Below, in pieces: positions 8,262 to 21,863 of a DNA stretch of 23,807 nt; the first letter of the stretch is position 1, and the number at the start of each line of letters is the position of its first letter. The notes under the pieces were generated by a model. It saw only the letters and a program-made list of their open reading frames with translations. It did no database searches and had not been told where the DNA came from. Made by a program: the position numbers and the translations under genes. This stretch comes from Asterionellopsis glacialis (Eukaryota; Bacillariophyta; Plagiogrammaphyceae; Rhaphoneidales; Asterionellopsidaceae). The stretch is from positions 5,898 to 29,704 of the forward strand of contig WKLE02000159.1 of assembly GCA_014885115.2 (NCBI GenBank), in the 5' to 3' direction.

Positions 8262-8455
8262 ATAAGAAAAGAAAAACAGAGCACCGGGCTCATTCTACTG
8301 ATTGAAATAGTAATACCAGTGTCTTCATTGAAATCGAGAGTAATATCTTTGACAAATTTAACATATAAGTGTTGAAATCTTTTTATTTTACTCTTCATAA
8401 ATTTCTTTTCGTCTACTTTTTCAAATTGTTATACGATAAACAAGTGCTTTGATTT

Positions 8456-8518
8456 CATGACAAGAAACACAGATTCAGAGTTCGTTACGAGTTGCGGCAT
8501 GCCTTTGCCAATGTTGCC
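8456..8518 (-). pseudogene. Relic of a copper amine oxidase 3' end (last codons plus start of 3' UTR)
   Basis: About 80% identical to 9868-9930, the C-terminus and downstream flank of the amine oxidase gene. On the minus strand it reads LAKACRNS-stop (stop at 8487-8485), against LAKACCSS-stop in the intact gene; the bases following the stop (AACGAACTC) and a CATGA...GAAACAC block further out are also shared. Weaker TTTTATTTTAC similarity continues into 8380-8455. Upstream of it the amine oxidase sequence is absent and the two-TM hypothetical protein gene sits instead, so this is a broken duplicate. Confidence 0.75.
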
Positions 8519-9318: not shown

Positions 9319-9375
9319 GTTGTATCAGGTATCTTGTACCCCTGGTACCATAGGTTGCCCTACCTGTTACCCTGG

Positions 9376-9441
9376 TACCTGGTACCTGGCACGGCATTAG
9401 TCCTAGGACCCTACCAGGTACCAGGTACCAGGTACCAGGTA
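9376..9441. repeat. Inverted arrays: TACCTGG x2 and CCAGGTA x4 with internal palindrome
   Basis: The 7-bp unit CCAGGTA occurs four times without mismatch at 9414-9441. Its reverse complement TACCTGG occurs twice at 9376-9389. GTCCTAGGAC (9400-9409) lies between, so the strand can fold into a nested hairpin. Confidence 0.85.
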
Positions 9442-9462: not shown

Positions 9463-9896
9463 GTACACTAGGTAGGTCCTACTCTAAGGGTCCTAAGTAG
9501 GCTTACCTGGTACCTACCTGGTTGGGAGTATCTTGTACAGGTACCTGGTACATGGTAGTCCTGTACCCCAGGTACTGGAACCTAAGCCCTCTAGTAGTAT
9601 TAAGTCCACTCAGTACCAGCAGGTTTCCAATTTTCACTAAATTTCCACCGAAACCATCTTCATCTGTTTCAAGCCAGGACCCCTCTACCGTAGAGAGAGA
9701 GTCCTGCTCTTCAATCTTCTGTTGCCTGACTTCATTTTGTAAATCTAGAGAGAGCATACGAGCTTCACAAATTTCGAAATTATTTGAAAACTCTTTTTTA
9801 TTTTACCTCTCTTTCTGTCTTCTTTTTTGATTCATACTCAAAATTTGTTCACGTGTAGTTTGGTTTTCATGATAGGAAACACTACTTTAGAGTTCG

Positions 9897-12185
9897 TTAT
9901 GAACTGCAGCATGCCTTTGCTAATTTGCTTGCATCATTTTTATCTGGTGGAATATCAATGGTAGGATTGCCATTAAAAAAATTGTCCGGTTTGAGAGTAA
10001 AGCCAGTACTTTCACAAGGCATGACTGGAAAATCTTCGACTCGTGGCACGTGACAAACACCAAAGGCATGCCAAAGGACTACATCTTGTGCTACAAGTGG
10101 CCGATCATTGGCAGTCCAGTCGACAAGTCCTACAGACCCATCACCTTGTGGGGTATATTCTCCTGCTGGATATCTCTCCTCATCGACATAGGGAGTTACC
10201 CATAAATGTGCTCTGGCAAAGGCACCCTTCTTGGCCACTGTAGAAGAAGGATCAACTAACATTAATGGCTGCGCAGGACCCTGGGTAAACGGTAAAAGTT
10301 TATATGCCGTAGGCTTGCCATTCACACCGTTAATTTTTTCTGCATTCGAAATCTTCCAAGACCGCGCCTTTGTCATATCAGCCTTACGAATCGCATTCTT
10401 TTCGGAATCAAGAATAGTTTCTTCCGCTTGAAAAACATTGCCATATGGGTTGGTTACGCTATCATGTGGTTTACACACAACATCAACCTCACTAACAGTA
10501 TTTTCGTAGCCATCGACAGCCATGTCCAGTCTAGCACAGAACATATGTTGATGTATTTGTGCATTTACACCAGGAGCGACCAAAGTCCCATGTGTAGTAT
10601 GGCCCAGTTCATCTTCCGTGGCGGACGGTAAGTTTGTAGAAAGCTCACCTGATAATTTGATTTCAAAGTCAATCATTCCATCTTGTCGAAGTCGCCAGTA
10701 AAACAAATACTCATAATTCACAACTGTAGCTATTGAACTAATAACCAGCTCACGTGAACGCCGTGATTCATTGTGACCATTCCTATATTCAACATGTTTC
10801 CATAGGATACCCTGATCTTCTTCATGCATACATATTGCCTTTTTCTTCACTTGACCATTCCCTGCCACATCCGACAGAACAGCATCAAAGTAATGAATAT
10901 GACCTAAACAATCACATCCAAGTTCTAAACTATTAGCACAATATCCTAAACCATAGTCTCCTACATCAAAGGCACATTTGCGTTGATGTGGTGGATATGG
11001 ATCACCATACGGTACTGCCATTTCCACTAATGACGCACGATGTACCACTGGTCTCCCATCAAAGCACACATCGTGTAAAACTAACCCTTCACGGTAATTA
11101 AATCCAACACGGAATGACCATTTTTGCCATTCCACTAAATGCCCATCTGAAACTTTGAAAGAAGGTCCATCTGGTTGGAGAACATCCAACGCAGCCAACG
11201 TATCATTTCGCCATGATGTTTCCAGATATGAATTTGTTTTTACCAAGTCACGATGATAATTAACTGAAGCAGTAGGGATCTTCGGTGCTGGCCGATCAAC
11301 ACCACCTACAGTAACAACTTGTCTTGCATTTAAGTCAACAACGGGTAAAACATCAATAGGGTGTGCATAATGATTGTCTTGCAAATTATCTCCATCCTGG
11401 CGATAATACAAAAATGTCTGAACGAGTCTTGCTGGTACATCACTATCCTTATTCCATTTGGTTAATTCAACATCATCATCAGATGCAAGATGGACACTCC
11501 ACGGATCACATGCTACACGAGACATGTCAGTAATACCATACCTTTCCTTTAAAATTTCCGCCACTTCCGAGGAACTTTGGACGATCGCTTCAGCCAAGTC
11601 ACAATCTTCTGGTGTAAACATTGGTTGAACACCTGCGGGGAGCGTTTTCGAATCAACCACAGTCAAGGATGATAAATCAACAACGAATTCAGATGCTAAT
11701 CCAGTAACAGGACTTAGAGTTACTACTTCGGCTTGACGACCAGGAAGAACACCTGGGTCAAATGAATTAGACTTCTGTCCATTTAAAAAGGGTACCAATC
11801 GTGATTTGGTTGGTTCCTTCAATGATACAGCAATGAAACGTAATTTCTCAAAGTTCGAATCGTCTTCAGCAGCAATGTTCAACAATGATCGAACGGCAGC
11901 TGAAGCAGCTTGAATTTCATCAACAGACAAAGGTTCAAGTGGATGGATTATATTTTGGTCCTGTGATACAAAATTTCTAACAGGAATCTGTATCGATTTA
12001 AATGACTTCCTGTTCTTTTGTTGTGCAGAAATATTTGGCTTAAAGTGAGAGGCGGCAGAATAACCCAAAGGATTAGGGCGACTCAATACTGACAAAAATG
12101 ATCTCTGACAACCACTATTGATGCCAATGGATTTCCTAAGCAATGAACGAGGTCCATACCAAAGTCGAGCGGTACGCTGAAACAT
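9897..12185 (-). CDS. Copper-containing (TPQ) primary amine oxidase
   Basis: 762 aa from the ATG at 12185. The frame runs to 12260, but only through a TTG and a CT-rich leader. Copper amine oxidases oxidatively deaminate primary amines to aldehyde, ammonia and H2O2. Visible: the N-terminal HPLEPLSVDEIQAASAAVR start of the N2/N3 domains (about 80-98); the catalytic-base region AFDVGDYGLGYCANSLELGCD with Asp407; the cofactor motif TVVNYEY with Tyr491 as the TPQ precursor; copper ligands His545 and His547 (QIHQH) and a third His in GVCHVPR (about 712); and the closing EDFPVMPCESTGFTLKP and FFNGNPTIDIPP. Residues 1-75 are rich in Arg/Ser and nearly free of acidic residues, a likely mitochondrial presequence. 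No PTS1 is present (C-terminus KACCSS). The gene is full-length for the family and intronless. A scrap of a second copy lies 1.4 kb downstream. Confidence 0.95.
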   Translation of the reverse strand: MFQRTARLWYGPRSLLRKSIGINSGCQRSFLSVLSRPNPLGYSAASHFKPNISAQQKNRKSFKSIQIPVRNFVSQDQNIIHPLEPLSVDEIQAASAAVRSLLNIAAEDDSNFEKLRFIAVSLKEPTKSRLVPFLNGQKSNSFDPGVLPGRQAEVVTLSPVTGLASEFVVDLSSLTVVDSKTLPAGVQPMFTPEDCDLAEAIVQSSSEVAEILKERYGITDMSRVACDPWSVHLASDDDVELTKWNKDSDVPARLVQTFLYYRQDGDNLQDNHYAHPIDVLPVVDLNARQVVTVGGVDRPAPKIPTASVNYHRDLVKTNSYLETSWRNDTLAALDVLQPDGPSFKVSDGHLVEWQKWSFRVGFNYREGLVLHDVCFDGRPVVHRASLVEMAVPYGDPYPPHQRKCAFDVGDYGLGYCANSLELGCDCLGHIHYFDAVLSDVAGNGQVKKKAICMHEEDQGILWKHVEYRNGHNESRRSRELVISSIATVVNYEYLFYWRLRQDGMIDFEIKLSGELSTNLPSATEDELGHTTHGTLVAPGVNAQIHQHMFCARLDMAVDGYENTVSEVDVVCKPHDSVTNPYGNVFQAEETILDSEKNAIRKADMTKARSWKISNAEKINGVNGKPTAYKLLPFTQGPAQPLMLVDPSSTVAKKGAFARAHLWVTPYVDEERYPAGEYTPQGDGSVGLVDWTANDRPLVAQDVVLWHAFGVCHVPRVEDFPVMPCESTGFTLKPDNFFNGNPTIDIPPDKNDASKLAKACCSS

Positions 12186-15656: not shown

Positions 15657-18600
15657 ATGAAATTCAATTTTAAATTACGCCGATTATGTGGTGCATATTA
15701 CGGTAGTCCAACATCTACAGAATCAAAATCGGGTAGTGGTGCTAATCTTGTTTATACATCCGATGGGAATACATTACTAAGCGCTGTATCGAATCGTGTA
15801 CAAATGTTAGATTTACAAACACACACCGTACGTACCTTACCCATTGAAGCACGGTCTAACATTCGGTGTATGGCATTAAGTCCTGATGATTGTTTGTTGG
15901 TCACAGTCGATGTGCAAAATTATGCCATGTTGGTCAACGTACGTCGAGGTGTTGTATTGCACCGATTTCGTTTTTCCAAGGGCAAAGTACGTCAAGTTTT
16001 ATTTTCACCCTGTGGACAATATATGGCGGTCACGGTAGGGAAACATGTACAAGTCTGGAATTCGTTAAAAAATCGAAAACGTGAATTTGCACCCCTAGTC
16101 TTACATAGGACCTATACAGGTTTGACAGATGATGTAGTTGCCTTACATTGGAGTACTGATTCATCTATTATATGTGCTGCAAGTCGTGATGGAACGGCAA
16201 GAATATGGACCCTCCATACAACCAAACACTATGAACCAGTTACATTAAGTGGTCATAAAAGTGCATTAGTTGGAATCTTTTTATCTACAAATGTAGCACA
16301 AGGTGCAAACGAGGGTGATACCTTTCATGGACTTCCATTACTACCACAAAATACTACTGTTACTACCAGTGATAATGAAAACAGTAATAGAATTCGATCA
16401 TGTTTCACTGTCAGTATAGATGGTGCACTTGTGACCTGGGAATGTAATCCAGGAAGTGTTCATGAAGAAGAAATGAGCCCATCACCATCTTCCACAGCGC
16501 CTGACGACGATCATTTTGGTGACGATGCTGTCAGTTTCTTCACTGGTGGTGATACTTTATCAAGTGGTAATAGAAAACGATCCTTTCATGAGTTGTCATC
16601 ATCCTCGTCACCCTTTTCTTCTTCGAAATCTCAAGCACATAAGTTGGTTCATGCTACTTGGTCTGTCAAGGCACGACACTACTTCCATCAAGAAGGTGCT
16701 ACTGTGACATCCACAGATTATTGTGAAAAGGAACGATTACTTGTGGTGGGATTTTCATCAGGTTTATTTGGATTGTATGAAATGCCATCAGTATCCAACA
16801 TTCATACATTGTCAGTGGGCTCAGATCAAATTATTCGGACCTCAGTATTGAATAAAACAGGTGAATGGTTAGCCATAGGTTGTCCAACATCACAGCAACT
16901 TTTAGTATGGGAATGGAGATCGGAAACATACATATTAAAACAAAGAGGACATGCCTATGGGATGAGATGCATGGCCTACTCACCCGATGGGATTGTTGTA
17001 TGTAGTGGTGGTGAAGATGGAAAATTAAAGTTGTGGAACGCCACCAGTGGTTTTTGTTATGTAACACTCGAGCAATCACATACGGCTCCTGTTACGGCTG
17101 TAGCCTTTGCGAATTCAAGTGTTGTCTTGTCAGCTAGTTTGGACGGAACTGTAAAGGCACATGATTTGCATCGATACCGTACCTTCAAAACACTGACAAC
17201 GCCCACACCAACACAATTCCTAAGTTTGGCTGTGGATCCTAGCGGTGAAGTAGTGACAGCTGGCACTATTGATCCCTTCCACATTTATGTTTGGAATTTG
17301 CAAACAGGCAAATTGATGGATATTTTGACAGGACACACAGGACCTGTTTGTGGATTAGCGTTTCAAAGTACAGGGGGCACACTTGCGTCCGCATCATGGG
17401 ATGGTACAGTCAAGTTTTGGGATTTGTACAAGGGCAACGTCCCAACTGAAAGTGTTCAACATACATCTGATGTAGTTTGTGTTGCCTTCCGACCAGATGG
17501 GAAGGAAATTTGTACGGGAACTATTGGTGGTTTATTAAGTTTTTGGGATGTCGAAGATGCACGTCTCAAATTTGAAATTGATGGTCGTCGAGATATTGCA
17601 GGAGGTACGACGATGAGCATTCTGTGTTATTTGCTGTTGCTTATTTCTTTGTTGGTTCTAGTGTGTACGAAATACACAAACGCAGTGATGATGAATATTC
17701 CCATAAACATTCGCAGTTCAAAGCTGACGGTAGTCATTTTATGGCATGCCCATTGGAGCAGCAATTACTTCCTTGGATGTCCGAGCGTTCTGTCCTTTCA
17801 CTTCCCATCGTGCAAGTTGTCTTCATCAAAGATCCTTGTCTGACATTGCTTGATTATTTGTTTTGCGATACTTCAGGACGAAAAATGAACGATAGGATGA
17901 CAGCTGACAACAATGCCTCTTCACGATATTTCACATCAGTTTGCTATTCGGCTGATGGATCTTGCGTTTTGGCTGGAGGAAATTCTAAGTATGTATGCAT
18001 CTATGAAATTTCTCAACAAATACTTTTGAAAAAGTTTCAAGTTACTTTCAATCGAAGTCTTGATGGAGTTTTAGATGAGGTGAGAAGAAAGTACCCTTTT
18101 GCATAGAATGATTATAAACTTGAGACGCAATGATGATGATTATTCCCATAAACATTCGCAGTTCGAAGCTGACGGTAGTCTTTTATGGCATGCCCATTGG
18201 AGCAGCAATTACTTCCTTGGATGTCCGAGCGTTCTCCTCCGTTATGGACTGTGACTCCACAATAAGTTCGCAGGCTTTTCTCACACTGATCTATCGTCTT
18301 CTTTTTTCCGATAATTGCAGCTCAACTCAAAAAACCTTGGAGAAGGTGGCCCTATTGACGACCATGCCGACTCAGGTGATGAAACTACGTACAACGCTTT
18401 GACTCTTCCAGGAGCTAAACGTGGTGACGATGGTTCTCGAAAGAGTCGTGTAGAAGTCCTCACAACCCAAGTTGCCTTCTCATCTACAGGTAGAGAATGG
18501 GCTACTGTTTCAGGTGAAGGTTTGCACGTTTATTCATTAGATGATGATATGATTTTTGATCCTATAGCATTGACAGAAGATATTACTCCTGCTACTATCG

Positions 18601-19007
18601 ATGCTAAGCTATCAGCAGGAGAGTATGGCATAGCTCTCAAGATGGCGATTCATTTAAATGAATCCGAATTAGTACAGGAAGTTTTGGAGGGGACACCGTA
18701 TGGGTCTATCCCACATGTCGTGCGGACTATTGGCCCAGAACAACTAGAACGATTGCTACAATTCGTTTCCAAATCCATGGCTGATTCTCCTCACGTTGAA
18801 TTCTACCTTCAGTGGTGTCTAACATTATTGCAGACCCATGGTACGTACATGGAGAAACACAGAGGAACATTTATGAGAGCGTTTCGTGCTATGCACAAAA
18901 ATGTCCAGAGTCGCCATGATGAACTAAAAACAATATGCGACGAGAACAAATATACACTTGCTTTTGTGAAAGATCAAGCTCAATTACTTTTGAGTAAACA
19001 TTCATAA
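15657..19007 (+). CDS. PWP2: Periodic tryptophan protein 2 (PWP2/UTP1), UTP-B subunit of the SSU processome
   Basis: Proposed join(15657..17604, 17877..18079, 18321..19007), 945 aa, close to yeast Pwp2 (about 920). Pwp2 is a nucleolar tandem WD40 protein of the UTP-B complex, which binds the pre-18S 5' region and U3 during early small-subunit assembly. It starts MKFNFKLRRLCGAYYG and shows repeated WD40 blades such as DGTARIWTLH, EDGKLKLWN, SWDGTVKFWDLY and IGGLLSFWDV. The family hallmark RRDIAGGRKMNDRMTADN is recreated only by splicing at 17604/17877. CYSADGSCVLAGGNSKYVC and SLDGVLDELNSKN follow across the second junction, then the helical Utp12 domain (about 780-945). A Ser/Asp-rich insert (16470-16640) is a low-complexity loop between blades. 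Each intron contains a U14-like snoRNA. Candidate branch points CTGAC (A17843) and CTGAT (A18289) lie 33 and 31 nt before the acceptors. Confidence 0.95.
17676..17793 (+). ncRNA. SNORD14: Box C/D snoRNA U14 (SNORD14/snR128-like), copy 1, in PWP2 intron 1
   Basis: C box GTGATGA (17685-17691). Domain A ACATTCGCAGTT (17707-17718) is complementary to the conserved AACTGCGAATG near the 18S 5' end. The guide CTTCCTTGGATGT (17768-17780) is complementary to 18S ACATCCAAGGAAG and abuts a D box CCGA (17781-17784). Counting five bases from the D box targets the C of ACATC, the site U14 methylates (yeast 18S C414). A terminal stem pairs AACGC (17679-17683) with GCGTT (17785-17789) and can extend through ACA/TGT with one bulged C. 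The core ends 87 nt before the 3' splice site, suiting release from the spliced intron. The unusual feature is CCGA in place of CUGA; the GA needed for the kink-turn is kept. A CTGA at 17721-17724 could serve as D'. Confidence 0.9.
18122..18236 (+). ncRNA. SNORD14: Box C/D snoRNA U14 (SNORD14/snR128-like), copy 2, in PWP2 intron 2
   Basis: Same layout as copy 1, differing over ~109 bases by three substitutions and one deleted A. C box ATGATGA (18130-18136), domain A (18152-18163), guide CTTCCTTGGATGT (18212-18224), D box CCGA (18225-18228). The terminal stem uses other flanking bases: GAGACGC (18122-18128) pairs with GCGTTCTC (18229-18236) with one bulged T. The core ends 84 nt before the intron 2 acceptor. 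Outside the snoRNA the two introns show no similarity. Substitutions avoid the guide, domain A and D box; one changes C box position 1 (G/A), both allowed by RUGAUGA. Confidence 0.9.
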
Positions 19008-19148: not shown

Positions 19149-20361
19149 TTAAAGTTCATCGTTGAGAGACGTTTTTGCTGGTTCAGCAGCTGATACCTTG
19201 AGTTTTGACACTGTCGAAAATAATTGATTTGACATGTAAGCTAGGACTCCCGTAGTCGTGAGATTAAGACTCTCCTTTACCGATACAATTACTTTTGCTT
19301 CGGTTGTAAAGGCAAAGGTTGTTTCCTCTGCCTTGAGGAGAGCCTCAGTGAGTGTAACATTGGCATCGTTAACAGCAGTATTATTAATTTTCCTAGCTTC
19401 CTCCTTGGCAGAAAGGAGTCGCGTTTGAGCTTTCGTTGTTTCTTGCGTACGTTGATTCCTAGCAAGCTCAATTTCTTCTGCAGCGGATTGTTTCGCAGCA
19501 ACAGCATTGGAATATTCACTTGGAAGTTCAACATTTTTAAGTTGAAGCGAAATTGCTAATGCGTAGACTCCAGCATCTCTATCATCCTCCGGACCTTCAA
19601 GTTTTATGCGTAGGTTATCCTCCATTGTACTTTGAATGATACCGCGTTTCTGTTGAAACTCTCCGATTTTGAATTCTAAAAATATACAAGAGGAAACAAA
19701 CATGGTAGAAAATCTAGTAAGTAATCTACTAAAAAAAATCTTGAGTTTGAAACCTCCAACTTTGGGCGGTGGGCTTACCTGAACATGAATGGTGTACGGC
19801 ACTGTTTCCAGCTGCAGTCACTACCTCTTTCCATTTATCGACATTGCGAAATTTGATTACTGCGGGATAGAGCCATTCAGCTGGCATTTGGTATTGAAAT
19901 GTAACTTCAAACTCAACTCGTAAACCATCTTGTGACACACAAGTGTCCTCAATATCAGTAGTAATGAATGTTGATGGGAATTTAATGAATTCATACCCTG
20001 GAGGACCAGAATGCATTCCTCCCAATTGGGCTTCATCACTTAACGTCTTAGAGTTGACATTGTATAGTAGTCCATATTCTGTAGAACCAAGTTTCTCAAG
20101 GGACACAGCAATTAGAACAATTGCCGTAATAAGGATGGCCGTGCATCCGACTCCCCATCCTATACGTTTAGGATTTGTATCACAGTACCGGATTGGTTCA
20201 CGTGTCCTTCGGACTCTTCCTTGGGGTTCGTATTCCGAACCTTTCTCTGGAATTATGTGAACAGCCCCTTCTTCCTCCTTCTCTTCTTCCCTATCATCTG
20301 GAATTTTTCTGATATTCGCATCCTCTTCGTCAGAAGTCTTCGGGCTGAAAATCCATGTCAT
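19149..20361 (-). CDS. SPFH/band-7 domain membrane protein (paralogue 1)
   Basis: Proposed join on the minus strand: 20361..19779 and 19675..19149, 369 aa. GTAAG donor at 19778, TTTTTAG acceptor at 19677-19676; splicing joins SAVHHSCS to EFKIGEFQQKRG in frame. Order: acidic/polar cytosolic N-terminus with a Glu-rich tract (about 12-32), one transmembrane helix (about 67-87, IGWGVGCTAILITAIVLIAV), a STEYGLLYN entry into the SPFH domain with DGLRVEFEVTFQYQMP, then an Ala/Glu/Lys-rich probable coiled coil (AAEEIELARNQRTQETTKAQ onward). SPFH proteins oligomerise on membranes and organise lipid microdomains, ion channels or proteases; the specific role here is unknown. It is divergent from a second SPFH gene of the same architecture. 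Confidence 0.82.
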
Positions 20362-20915
20362 GGTGAAGATATTAGATATACGTTCTCGTCAATACGTCGC
20401 TTTCTGTGGAAGTAAATAAATCAAAGATATGAAAGTATCGTCTCTAAAATGAGAAATACGCTTCTTGAGTTGTATGTTGATGATGAAATGATTGCCCGCG
20501 CATTTCTTTAGTCCTGGGTTTAGGTGAAAAGATGCCACGGATGAGAACTCTAAACTCGGGCTCGATACAGTACCACGTGCCTAATCTATGTACTTTGCCT
20601 GTAGTTTTTAGTCGTAAAAATGATAAATAGTGAAAAAATGGATATCACATTTCTTTAGTCTTGGGTTGGGGCTCGATACAGTAACTTTTGGTACACTTTT
20701 AACGCAAGGTGTCAACGATATGAGATTTTATGGAAACCATGACTGAAAGTTGTACTGGAAAAATTACATAGAAATCATGCCGTTATGGGATTGCACGATG
20801 CATTCACTATGTTCTTTGGGCCTCCTGGGGTTCTCATTTCTCTTCACATCCAAAAAGATCTACATTGAGCATAACATTGCACACCCAAAAGCTTTTAGAT
20901 ATTTCATCTTTCACC
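20362..20915. promoter_or_regulatory. Shared divergent promoter region of the two SPFH genes, with a duplicated block
   Basis: The only DNA between the two SPFH starts. Two sequence blocks occur twice in the same order: CATTTCTTTAGTC[C/T]TGGGTT (20501-20520 and 20648-20667) and GGGCTCGATACAGTA (20558-20572 and 20669-20683). In the right copy they are 1 nt apart; in the left they are separated by 37 nt. A duplicated cis-regulatory module is the simplest reading; it is not proven. Confidence 0.6.
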
Positions 20916-21863
20916 ATGGCATTATCCAAAGGAAATCGTGACTGTCTTTTTATTCTCCTTGCGTTGGGTATTCTACTAACCGCCATTCTAGTCCCCTTGA
21001 GTTTTTCCTATGTTGAGTACTACGAGTATGGGTTGAAACAACGTCGATCTAGTGGAAGTATTTACCTTGATCGTGTCTATACAAGTGGGCGTTATAGTAC
21101 AGGCGTTAAATATAAATTTTTCAAATATCAAGCTGATTCTCACTTTGAACATCTCAAAGAACTTGAAGTTTTTTCGGCAGGTTCAACAAACGAATCTATT
21201 GGTCTCGACTTTAAAGTTGATGTAGACTTTACGTATCTTCTGATTCAAGATCAAATTGGTCAACTCCACAAGGAACTTGCATCGTCGTACGAAACTATCG
21301 TGACATCCCGAGCCAAGGATGCTATCAAGAATGAAGCCATCTTTGTTACTTTTACAGAATACTTTCAACAACGAAAGGAAGTTGAAGCACGATTCCGTAA
21401 GGCTGTACAAGAAAGATGGAATACAAAACCATCCTTACATATTACACTTGATCAATTCCATTTAGGACGAATCCGTATCCCTGATTCAGTTGCGTCGAAG
21501 CAACTTGAAACTCGTGTTCAAAATGAGAAAAATCAAAAGGAAGCATTTGATCAACAAGCACAGTTTGAGCGGGAGCTTACAGCTGTTGAAGTTAATAGTA
21601 TTGATTTGGAAGCTGATAAAGTTCTACGTAATGCTAGAGCACAGGCCAATCTCCTACGTGCAAAGGCCAAGGTAGAGGCCGATCAGATCACTGCTGAAGC
21701 TCAACTAAATGGTACACAACTTCTTTTCGAAGCTGCTGGTATTACCACTCAAGAACACAAAACAGCCTTTACATACCTACGAACATTGAAAAATCGAGAC
21801 GAAATCGATTTGGATGTAAGTTATCTAACATCTGACAATATTATCAGGACGAAAAACGTTTGA
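20916..21863 (+). CDS. SPFH/band-7 domain membrane protein (paralogue 2)
   Basis: 315 aa, single exon. Start set at ATG 20916 (CACCATGG); the frame extends to 20865, but only to a TTG. A short N-terminus leads to one transmembrane helix (about 10-30, CLFILLALGILLTAILVPLSF), then YYEYGLKQRR entering the SPFH/prohibitin-like domain (VFSAGSTNESIGLDFKVDVDFTYLL; later FRKAVQERW and LGRIRIPDSVASKQLETRVQ) and an Ala/Glu/Arg-rich coiled coil (ADKVLRNARAQANLLRAKAK) typical of band-7 proteins. EYGL after the helix is shared with the neighbouring divergent gene. The two may be co-expressed and form hetero-oligomers as prohibitins do, which is inference. Unlike paralogue 1 it lacks the long acidic N-terminal extension. 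Confidence 0.85.
   Translation: MALSKGNRDCLFILLALGILLTAILVPLSFSYVEYYEYGLKQRRSSGSIYLDRVYTSGRYSTGVKYKFFKYQADSHFEHLKELEVFSAGSTNESIGLDFKVDVDFTYLLIQDQIGQLHKELASSYETIVTSRAKDAIKNEAIFVTFTEYFQQRKEVEARFRKAVQERWNTKPSLHITLDQFHLGRIRIPDSVASKQLETRVQNEKNQKEAFDQQAQFERELTAVEVNSIDLEADKVLRNARAQANLLRAKAKVEADQITAEAQLNGTQLLFEAAGITTQEHKTAFTYLRTLKNRDEIDLDVSYLTSDNIIRTKNV

Follow-up and report, generated by a model that had tools for sequence, protein, structure and literature searches.

U14-like box C/D snoRNA elements in two consecutive introns of a diatom PWP2 gene

The PWP2 (UTP1) gene at this locus is interrupted by two introns, and each was described in the initial annotation as carrying a U14 snoRNA gene. Are these intronic elements U14, and what would such genes do inside this host? 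A window of 23,807 nucleotides, which is the whole stretch of DNA that was analysed, was examined for this purpose; its contig, C72, is one of the 1503 that make up a 40.3-Mb assembly, which was searched for further copies. Coordinates refer to the window unless a contig is given (Table 1).

Host gene and the element shared by its introns

Cutting out 17605-17876 and 18080-18320 joined the exons into a continuous reading frame of 945 codons, whose only stop is at its end. The naming of the host in the initial annotation was confirmed: the top solved-structure matches of the encoded protein bear the name Periodic tryptophan protein 2 (5oql_A, E 6.5e-210; 7mq8_LO, E 8e-208), and the Utp12 C-terminal domain (PF04003) was detected by Pfam with E 3.6e-24. 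The spliced product is a letter-for-letter match to protein P0001, also of 945 aa, from mmetsp, which we take to be a marine eukaryote transcriptome collection. Since P0001 is transcript-derived and identical to spliced PWP2, both introns are evidently removed in the expressed mRNA. A homologue search yielded 2748 proteins; among the best 120 of these, the readable organism names were those of diatoms (Nitzschia, Pseudo-nitzschia, Seminavis, Cylindrotheca, Fistulifera, Thalassiosira and others), with Nitzschia inconspicua as the nearest named relative (70% identical), which points to a diatom as the source of the DNA.

Table 1. Coordinates of the PWP2 gene, its intronic elements and the U14 copies on other contigs
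Feature	Position	Strand	Remarks
PWP2 (UTP1) host gene	15657..19007	+	three coding exons, 945 aa
PWP2 coding exons	15657-17604, 17877-18079, 18321-19007	+	
PWP2 intron 1	17605..17876	+	272 nt, GT..AG, phase 1
U14 (SNORD14) copy 1	17680..17788	+	109 nt; RF00016 54.6 bits, E 1e-10
Box C GTGATGA, copy 1	17685..17691	+	
Domain A, copy 1, CATTCGCAGTT	17708..17718	+	11 nt complementary to 18S 5' region
Domain B, copy 1, CTTCCTTGGATGT	17768..17780	+	13-nt predicted guide, yeast C414 / human C462-equivalent cytosine
Box D CCGA, copy 1	17781..17784	+	consensus CUGA
Candidate branch-point A (CTGAC), intron 1	17843	+	motif scan; 55 nt past U14, 33 nt before 3' splice site
PWP2 intron 2	18080..18320	+	241 nt, GT..AG
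U14 (SNORD14) copy 2	18125..18232	+	108 nt; RF00016 52.8 bits, E 3.4e-10
Box C ATGATGA, copy 2	18130..18136	+	
Domain A, copy 2, CATTCGCAGTT	18153..18163	+	
Domain B, copy 2, CTTCCTTGGATGT	18212..18224	+	
Box D CCGA, copy 2	18225..18228	+	
Candidate branch-point A (CTGAT), intron 2	18289	+	motif scan; 57 nt past U14, 31 nt before 3' splice site
U14 copy in DIS3/RRP44 exosome gene	C81:3433-3529		51.1 bits; 224-nt intron
Weaker U14 copy	C386:29308-29409		38.1 bits; 275-nt intron; domain A 8 pairs

The two elements align with 105 matches, 3 substitutions and 1 gap, as expected from the initial description of a near-identical segment of about 109 bases in both introns. Copy 1 starts 75 nt and copy 2 45 nt past the 5' splice site, and both end 88 nt short of the 3' splice site. 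The repeat search stretched the shared element by TCT, to 17791/18235. Local alignment of the whole introns scored 202, compared with at most 31 in 500 shuffles. The remainder of the introns had been called unrelated, and indeed no significant similarity was seen between the flanks: a score as good or better was reached by 456 of 500 shuffles for the 5' flanks and by 75 of 500 for the 3' flanks, from which the common TCT after the element was removed before counting.

Duplication of a whole intron was rejected as a simple account, given flanks with no significant similarity. Because the surrounding intron is unrelated, the snoRNA unit alone would have been copied or kept alike; the pair may have arisen by copying of this unit, or the two copies may have been kept alike by selection and conversion. 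In human, members of a C/D family are described as residing mostly in one host gene, which is ascribed to recombination in cis (PMC8178906). The PWP2 pair fits this pattern, but the copied unit would be the snoRNA alone.

Other repeats and gene pairs were recorded elsewhere in the window. A 65-nt direct repeat (80% alike) is found at 8448-8512 and 9860-9924. A minus-strand ORF for copper amine oxidase overlaps the copy at 9860-9924 with its 3' end, so 8448-8512 may be the remnant of a duplicated gene end. An inverted repeat with arms of 24 nt at 9371-9394 and 9409-9432, which are 92% complementary and separated by 14 nt, is built of CCTGGTA repeats and situated between two listed ORFs. Two neighbouring ORFs, 19729-20361 (-) and 20865-21863 (+), both match SPFH/Band 7, one of them just under the curated cut-off, and are arranged like a divergent pair on opposite strands; a 37-nt direct repeat (76%) lies between them at 20484-20520 and 20631-20667.

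U14 identity and pairing with 18S rRNA

With Infernal, the RF00016 (SNORD14/U14) model matched both PWP2 elements over positions 1-111 of 111. The E-values of 1e-10 and 3.4e-10 were obtained even though both scores are under the curated gathering cut-off of 64 bits, which was used as an annotation cut-off and not treated as defining U14 membership. At this default cut-off Rfam gave no match over the whole window. The default Rfam annotation lists neither PWP2 copy, and automatic annotation would miss both. The other three matches in the E-value search were at chance level (E 4.1 to 6.1), and within 20.5 kb around the U14 copies Rfam returned nothing at E up to 0.05 beyond the two known copies. 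When the whole window was scanned for a box C combined with a box D (CUGA or CCGA) and five or more terminal stem pairs, only the two PWP2 elements came up; 20 shuffled windows gave 1 match in total. Chance as the source of the elements was rejected on the RF00016 E-values and on the stem scan compared with its shuffles.

All four copies found in the genome (see below) share one plan. Each starts with ACGC, has RUGAUGA (as GTGATGA or ATGATGA) from position 6, beside the ACGC/GCGT terminal stem, and ends in CTTCCTTGGATGT-CCGA-GCGT, so that a box D with the GA core stands at the 3' end directly before GCGT. Box C, domain B, box D and the terminal stem are conserved in 4/4 copies and the domain A 11-mer in 3/4. 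The exact CUGA of the RF00016 family consensus is absent from all four. It was not treated as defining for a box C/D snoRNA, as a published first-letter exception exists. Of the full U14 plan claimed for each PWP2 copy, RUGAUGA, the 13-mer directly before box D and the terminal stem were retained; the one correction concerns box D, whose CCGA sequence the initial annotation did not report.

The 13-mer CTTCCTTGGATGT and the 12-mer ACATTCGCAGTT (17707-17718, 18152-18163) each have two perfect matches in the window and no more. When 2 mismatches were allowed for the 13-mer and 1 for the 12-mer, 3 and 2 matches were counted, and 2 of 100 shuffles reached either count; the guide words alone are therefore not strong. 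It is rather the order of the guide words together with the Rfam match (E 1e-10) that is strong.

Folding was evaluated for all four copies, with z-scores of 0.63, 0.01, -1.19 and 0.75. The first two are those of the PWP2 elements, whose folding energy is no better than that of shuffles and thus lends the U14 reading no support. A middle hairpin is predicted in 4/4 copies, where 262, 351, 151 and 121 of 1000 shuffles fold at least as well, and two-sided changes are seen in 2 of 23 consensus pairs. Predicted hairpin and pair changes were regarded as weak support and were not used.

Pairing was computed on the 18S gene of another eukaryote (L009), which had been picked by a pattern holding both sites. 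Here domain A, CATTCGCAGTT, pairs with 18S AACTGCGAATG through 11 contiguous pairs in the PWP2 and DIS3 copies and through 8 in the C386 copy, while domain B, directly 5' of CCGA, forms 13 contiguous pairs in all four. Among 2000 shuffles of copy 1, 37 reached the 11 pairs and 1 reached the 13 pairs. The complementarity to the 18S 5' region, initially ascribed to the whole 12-mer, extends over 11 of its 12 letters; the twelfth does not pair. In box C/D guides the methylated base pairs with the fifth guide base before box D (D+5 rule), and this base is G in 4/4 copies, opposite the expected 18S cytosine. The predicted methylation site would be the fifth base (C) of 18S ACATCCAAGGAAG, equivalent to yeast C414. 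The target cytosine of U14 is tabulated as C414 in yeast, C462 in human and C416 in Arabidopsis (PMC3511168).

The 18S gene of the diatom itself was sought by means of the guide complements. Both complements at a distance of 300-330 nt were not found in the 40.3-Mb assembly. The complement of the 13-mer occurs at six places in the assembly (reversed control word at five), four of which are the U14 copies; no rRNA was detected by Rfam at the two others. The 11-mer is present at 14 places (reversed control at five), and of the 10 examined three are U14 copies and seven gave no rRNA by Rfam. As these searches came back empty, rDNA seems to be missing from the assembly.

Five contigs with both complements (L005-L009) were found by pattern, and the presence of both sites in them is by construction. 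They are filed under bacterial assemblies (e.g. Blastococcus, Brenneria, Planomonospora), and eukaryotic SSU rRNA was confirmed in 5/5. With eukaryotic 18S on bacterial-filed contigs, they look like contamination. The U14 pattern hit 0 stretches in viral contigs, and its shorter form 0 in prokaryote genome contigs.

The PWP2 introns, which are spliced out, contain two conserved U14-like elements of full length in sense orientation. The full-length RF00016 matches, guides, boxes and stem support the initial reading of both as U14 genes, and by analogy with U14 elsewhere both introns very probably encode a functional U14 box C/D snoRNA that is released from the spliced intron.

Further copies, intron position and rival readings

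Genome-wide, the covariance model, for which the best 100 of 926 candidates were scored, and a DNA search, for which all 4 candidates were, agreed on at least four U14 copies, two of them in PWP2. All four found are in introns and in sense orientation. The host on contig C81 is an exosome gene: its spliced product matches RRP44/DIS3 with E 1.9e-190, with the alignment unbroken across the junction, and carries an RNB domain (E 6.2e-99). Two other introns in the same part of the gene measure 93 and 91 nt. The host of the C386 copy encodes a 334-aa protein for which no Pfam match was obtained; the source names of its relatives include ketopantoate reductase and opine dehydrogenase domain protein, and an equal-length mmetsp protein is 94% identical and unchanged around the junction. 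Its function is uncertain, reductase-like. Two rRNA-processing genes, PWP2 and DIS3, hence host U14 in the same genome. To see if CCGA extends beyond U14, other snoRNAs were sought, and searches for U3 (RF00012), snosnR60_Z15 (RF00309) and SNORD27 (RF00086) gave no genome-wide match, an empty result which does not show absence.

The distance from the U14 end to the 3' splice site is 88 and 88 nt in PWP2, 82 nt in DIS3 and 118 nt in C386. Besides the candidates of Table 1, motif scans gave a second branch point in PWP2 intron 1 at 17853 (65 nt past U14) and candidate branch-point A's 45, 50, 55 and 61 nt past U14 in the DIS3 intron. In the C386 intron the picture is less clear: candidates were placed 11, 28 and 40 nt past U14, yet their distance to the 3' splice site is 78-107 nt, and the motif TACTAAAC has its A 75 nt past U14. 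For vertebrate intronic C/D snoRNAs, a review names a distance of about 50 nt to the downstream branch point as optimal (PMC8162545). By this comparison, three of the four copies, ending 82-88 nt before the 3' splice site, appear to be positioned much like mammalian intronic C/D snoRNAs, and the vertebrate position rule seems to hold in a stramenopile. If so, splicing-coupled snoRNP assembly would be an older or a recurrent feature.

The C/D core proteins are fibrillarin, NOP56, NOP58 and SNU13. In the proposed pathway, splicing of the PWP2 pre-mRNA would yield two lariats, and the core proteins would assemble on the terminal stem and the C/D boxes of an intron still held by the spliceosome. 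Debranching and subsequent exonuclease trimming would leave a protected RNA of about 109 nt. Its domain B would pair with 18S over 13 bp and direct 2'-O-methylation of the C414-equivalent cytosine, and domain A would pair with the 18S 5' region over 11 bp and, together with domain B, help 18S processing. For RNP assembly, release and activity of the PWP2 U14 we infer this by analogy with U14 elsewhere (PMC7277114).

Several other readings were weighed against that of two functional U14 genes. In one, the repeat is no snoRNA but a short inserted element, or a copied piece of intron kept for the sake of splicing. Near-identical segments in unrelated flanks would also fit an insertion, and three host genes carry copies. 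The full-length RF00016 match, both U14 guides, the terminal stem and the C/D boxes speak against such a repeat, as do the four copies found in 40.3 Mb, which are without exception intronic and in sense, and we give it practically no credence. A less remote alternative is that working U14 comes from just one PWP2 copy, or from the one in DIS3, and that the others are duplicates making little RNA. Weaker copies do appear to exist, as suggested by the C386 copy with 38.1 bits and 8 domain A pairs. However, the two PWP2 copies each have all U14 elements and lie equally far from the 3' splice site amid unrelated intron, which argues for selection on both; a single working copy is somewhat unlikely.

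The box D sequence raises a further alternative. In the kink-turn, the G and A of box D form sheared pairs. A CCGA box might weaken kink-turn assembly, in which case the RNAs would be U14-derived processing chaperones that act by base pairing only and guide no methylation. The presence of CCGA in 4/4 copies, against the family consensus CUGA, is in line with this proposal. Yet CCGA keeps the first C as well as the G and A of the sheared pairs, and the exact 13-nt guide abutting box D is invariant in 4/4 copies, a spacing for which a chaperone has no use. In the published variants of the terminal box D that were found, the first letter is changed and not the second, which favours the chaperone: a terminal AUGA is described in Entamoeba, for which CCGA was found only as the laxer internal D' box (PMC3542256), and an AUGA box D with a compensating box C change is reported from a cryptophyte nucleomorph (PMC6461891). 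Overall, we consider the loss of guide function very improbable. With methylation-guiding U14 as the preferred reading, a C in place of the U of box D may be tolerated.

A more far-reaching version of the preferred reading holds that U14 with both intact guides is made only as a by-product of the PWP2 (UTP-B, 18S processing) and DIS3 (exosome, rRNA trimming) mRNAs, that splicing would set its dosage, and that CCGA would show the U of CUGA to be dispensable. In this full form the proposal is improbable.

Comparison with known systems

In the initial annotation PWP2 is not among the known U14 hosts, which agrees with a targeted literature search of open-licence papers, where PWP2 was not found as a snoRNA host. 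In passages of one paper that brings together PWP2, host gene and snoRNA (PMC4264851), "host gene" occurs in a reference title only.

Vertebrate U14 offers a close arrangement in that several copies likewise reside in introns of one gene, hsc70/HSPA8, and are released from its pre-mRNA; three copies are described in the hsc70 introns of human, mouse and rat (PMC7277114). The diatom differs in its host, PWP2, which is itself an 18S-processing protein, in its CCGA box D and in two further copies elsewhere. Yeast U14 (snR128) shares with the diatom U14 the domain A and domain B complementarities and the C414 guide. It is paired with snR190 and is not known to be intronic. The yeast RNA is required for 18S production and has an essential Y-domain (PMC7277114), whereas the middle hairpin of the diatom U14 is short and varies between copies. 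Ostreococcus tauri is also a unicellular alga with U14 (Ot-CDsno13) and with C/D snoRNAs in consecutive introns of one gene. As described there, its U14 is part of a polycistronic cluster, and the consecutive-intron pair, Ot-CDsno90/91, consists of other snoRNAs in a nucleoporin gene (PMC7671301). In Plasmodium falciparum, Enp1 is likewise a ribosome-biogenesis factor gene hosting several intronic C/D snoRNAs, namely PFS5-7, three snoRNAs listed with 28S targets (PMC2656528).

Multi-copy intronic U14, ribosome-biogenesis hosts and snoRNAs in consecutive introns were thus already known, and PWP2 as the host appears to be new as far as open-licence papers go; among the additions, the CCGA box D common to all four copies and the DIS3 copy are of most interest. 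PWP2 and U14 serve the same ribosomal subunit, and the locus provides a diatom case for snoRNAs riding in the introns of genes of their own pathway.
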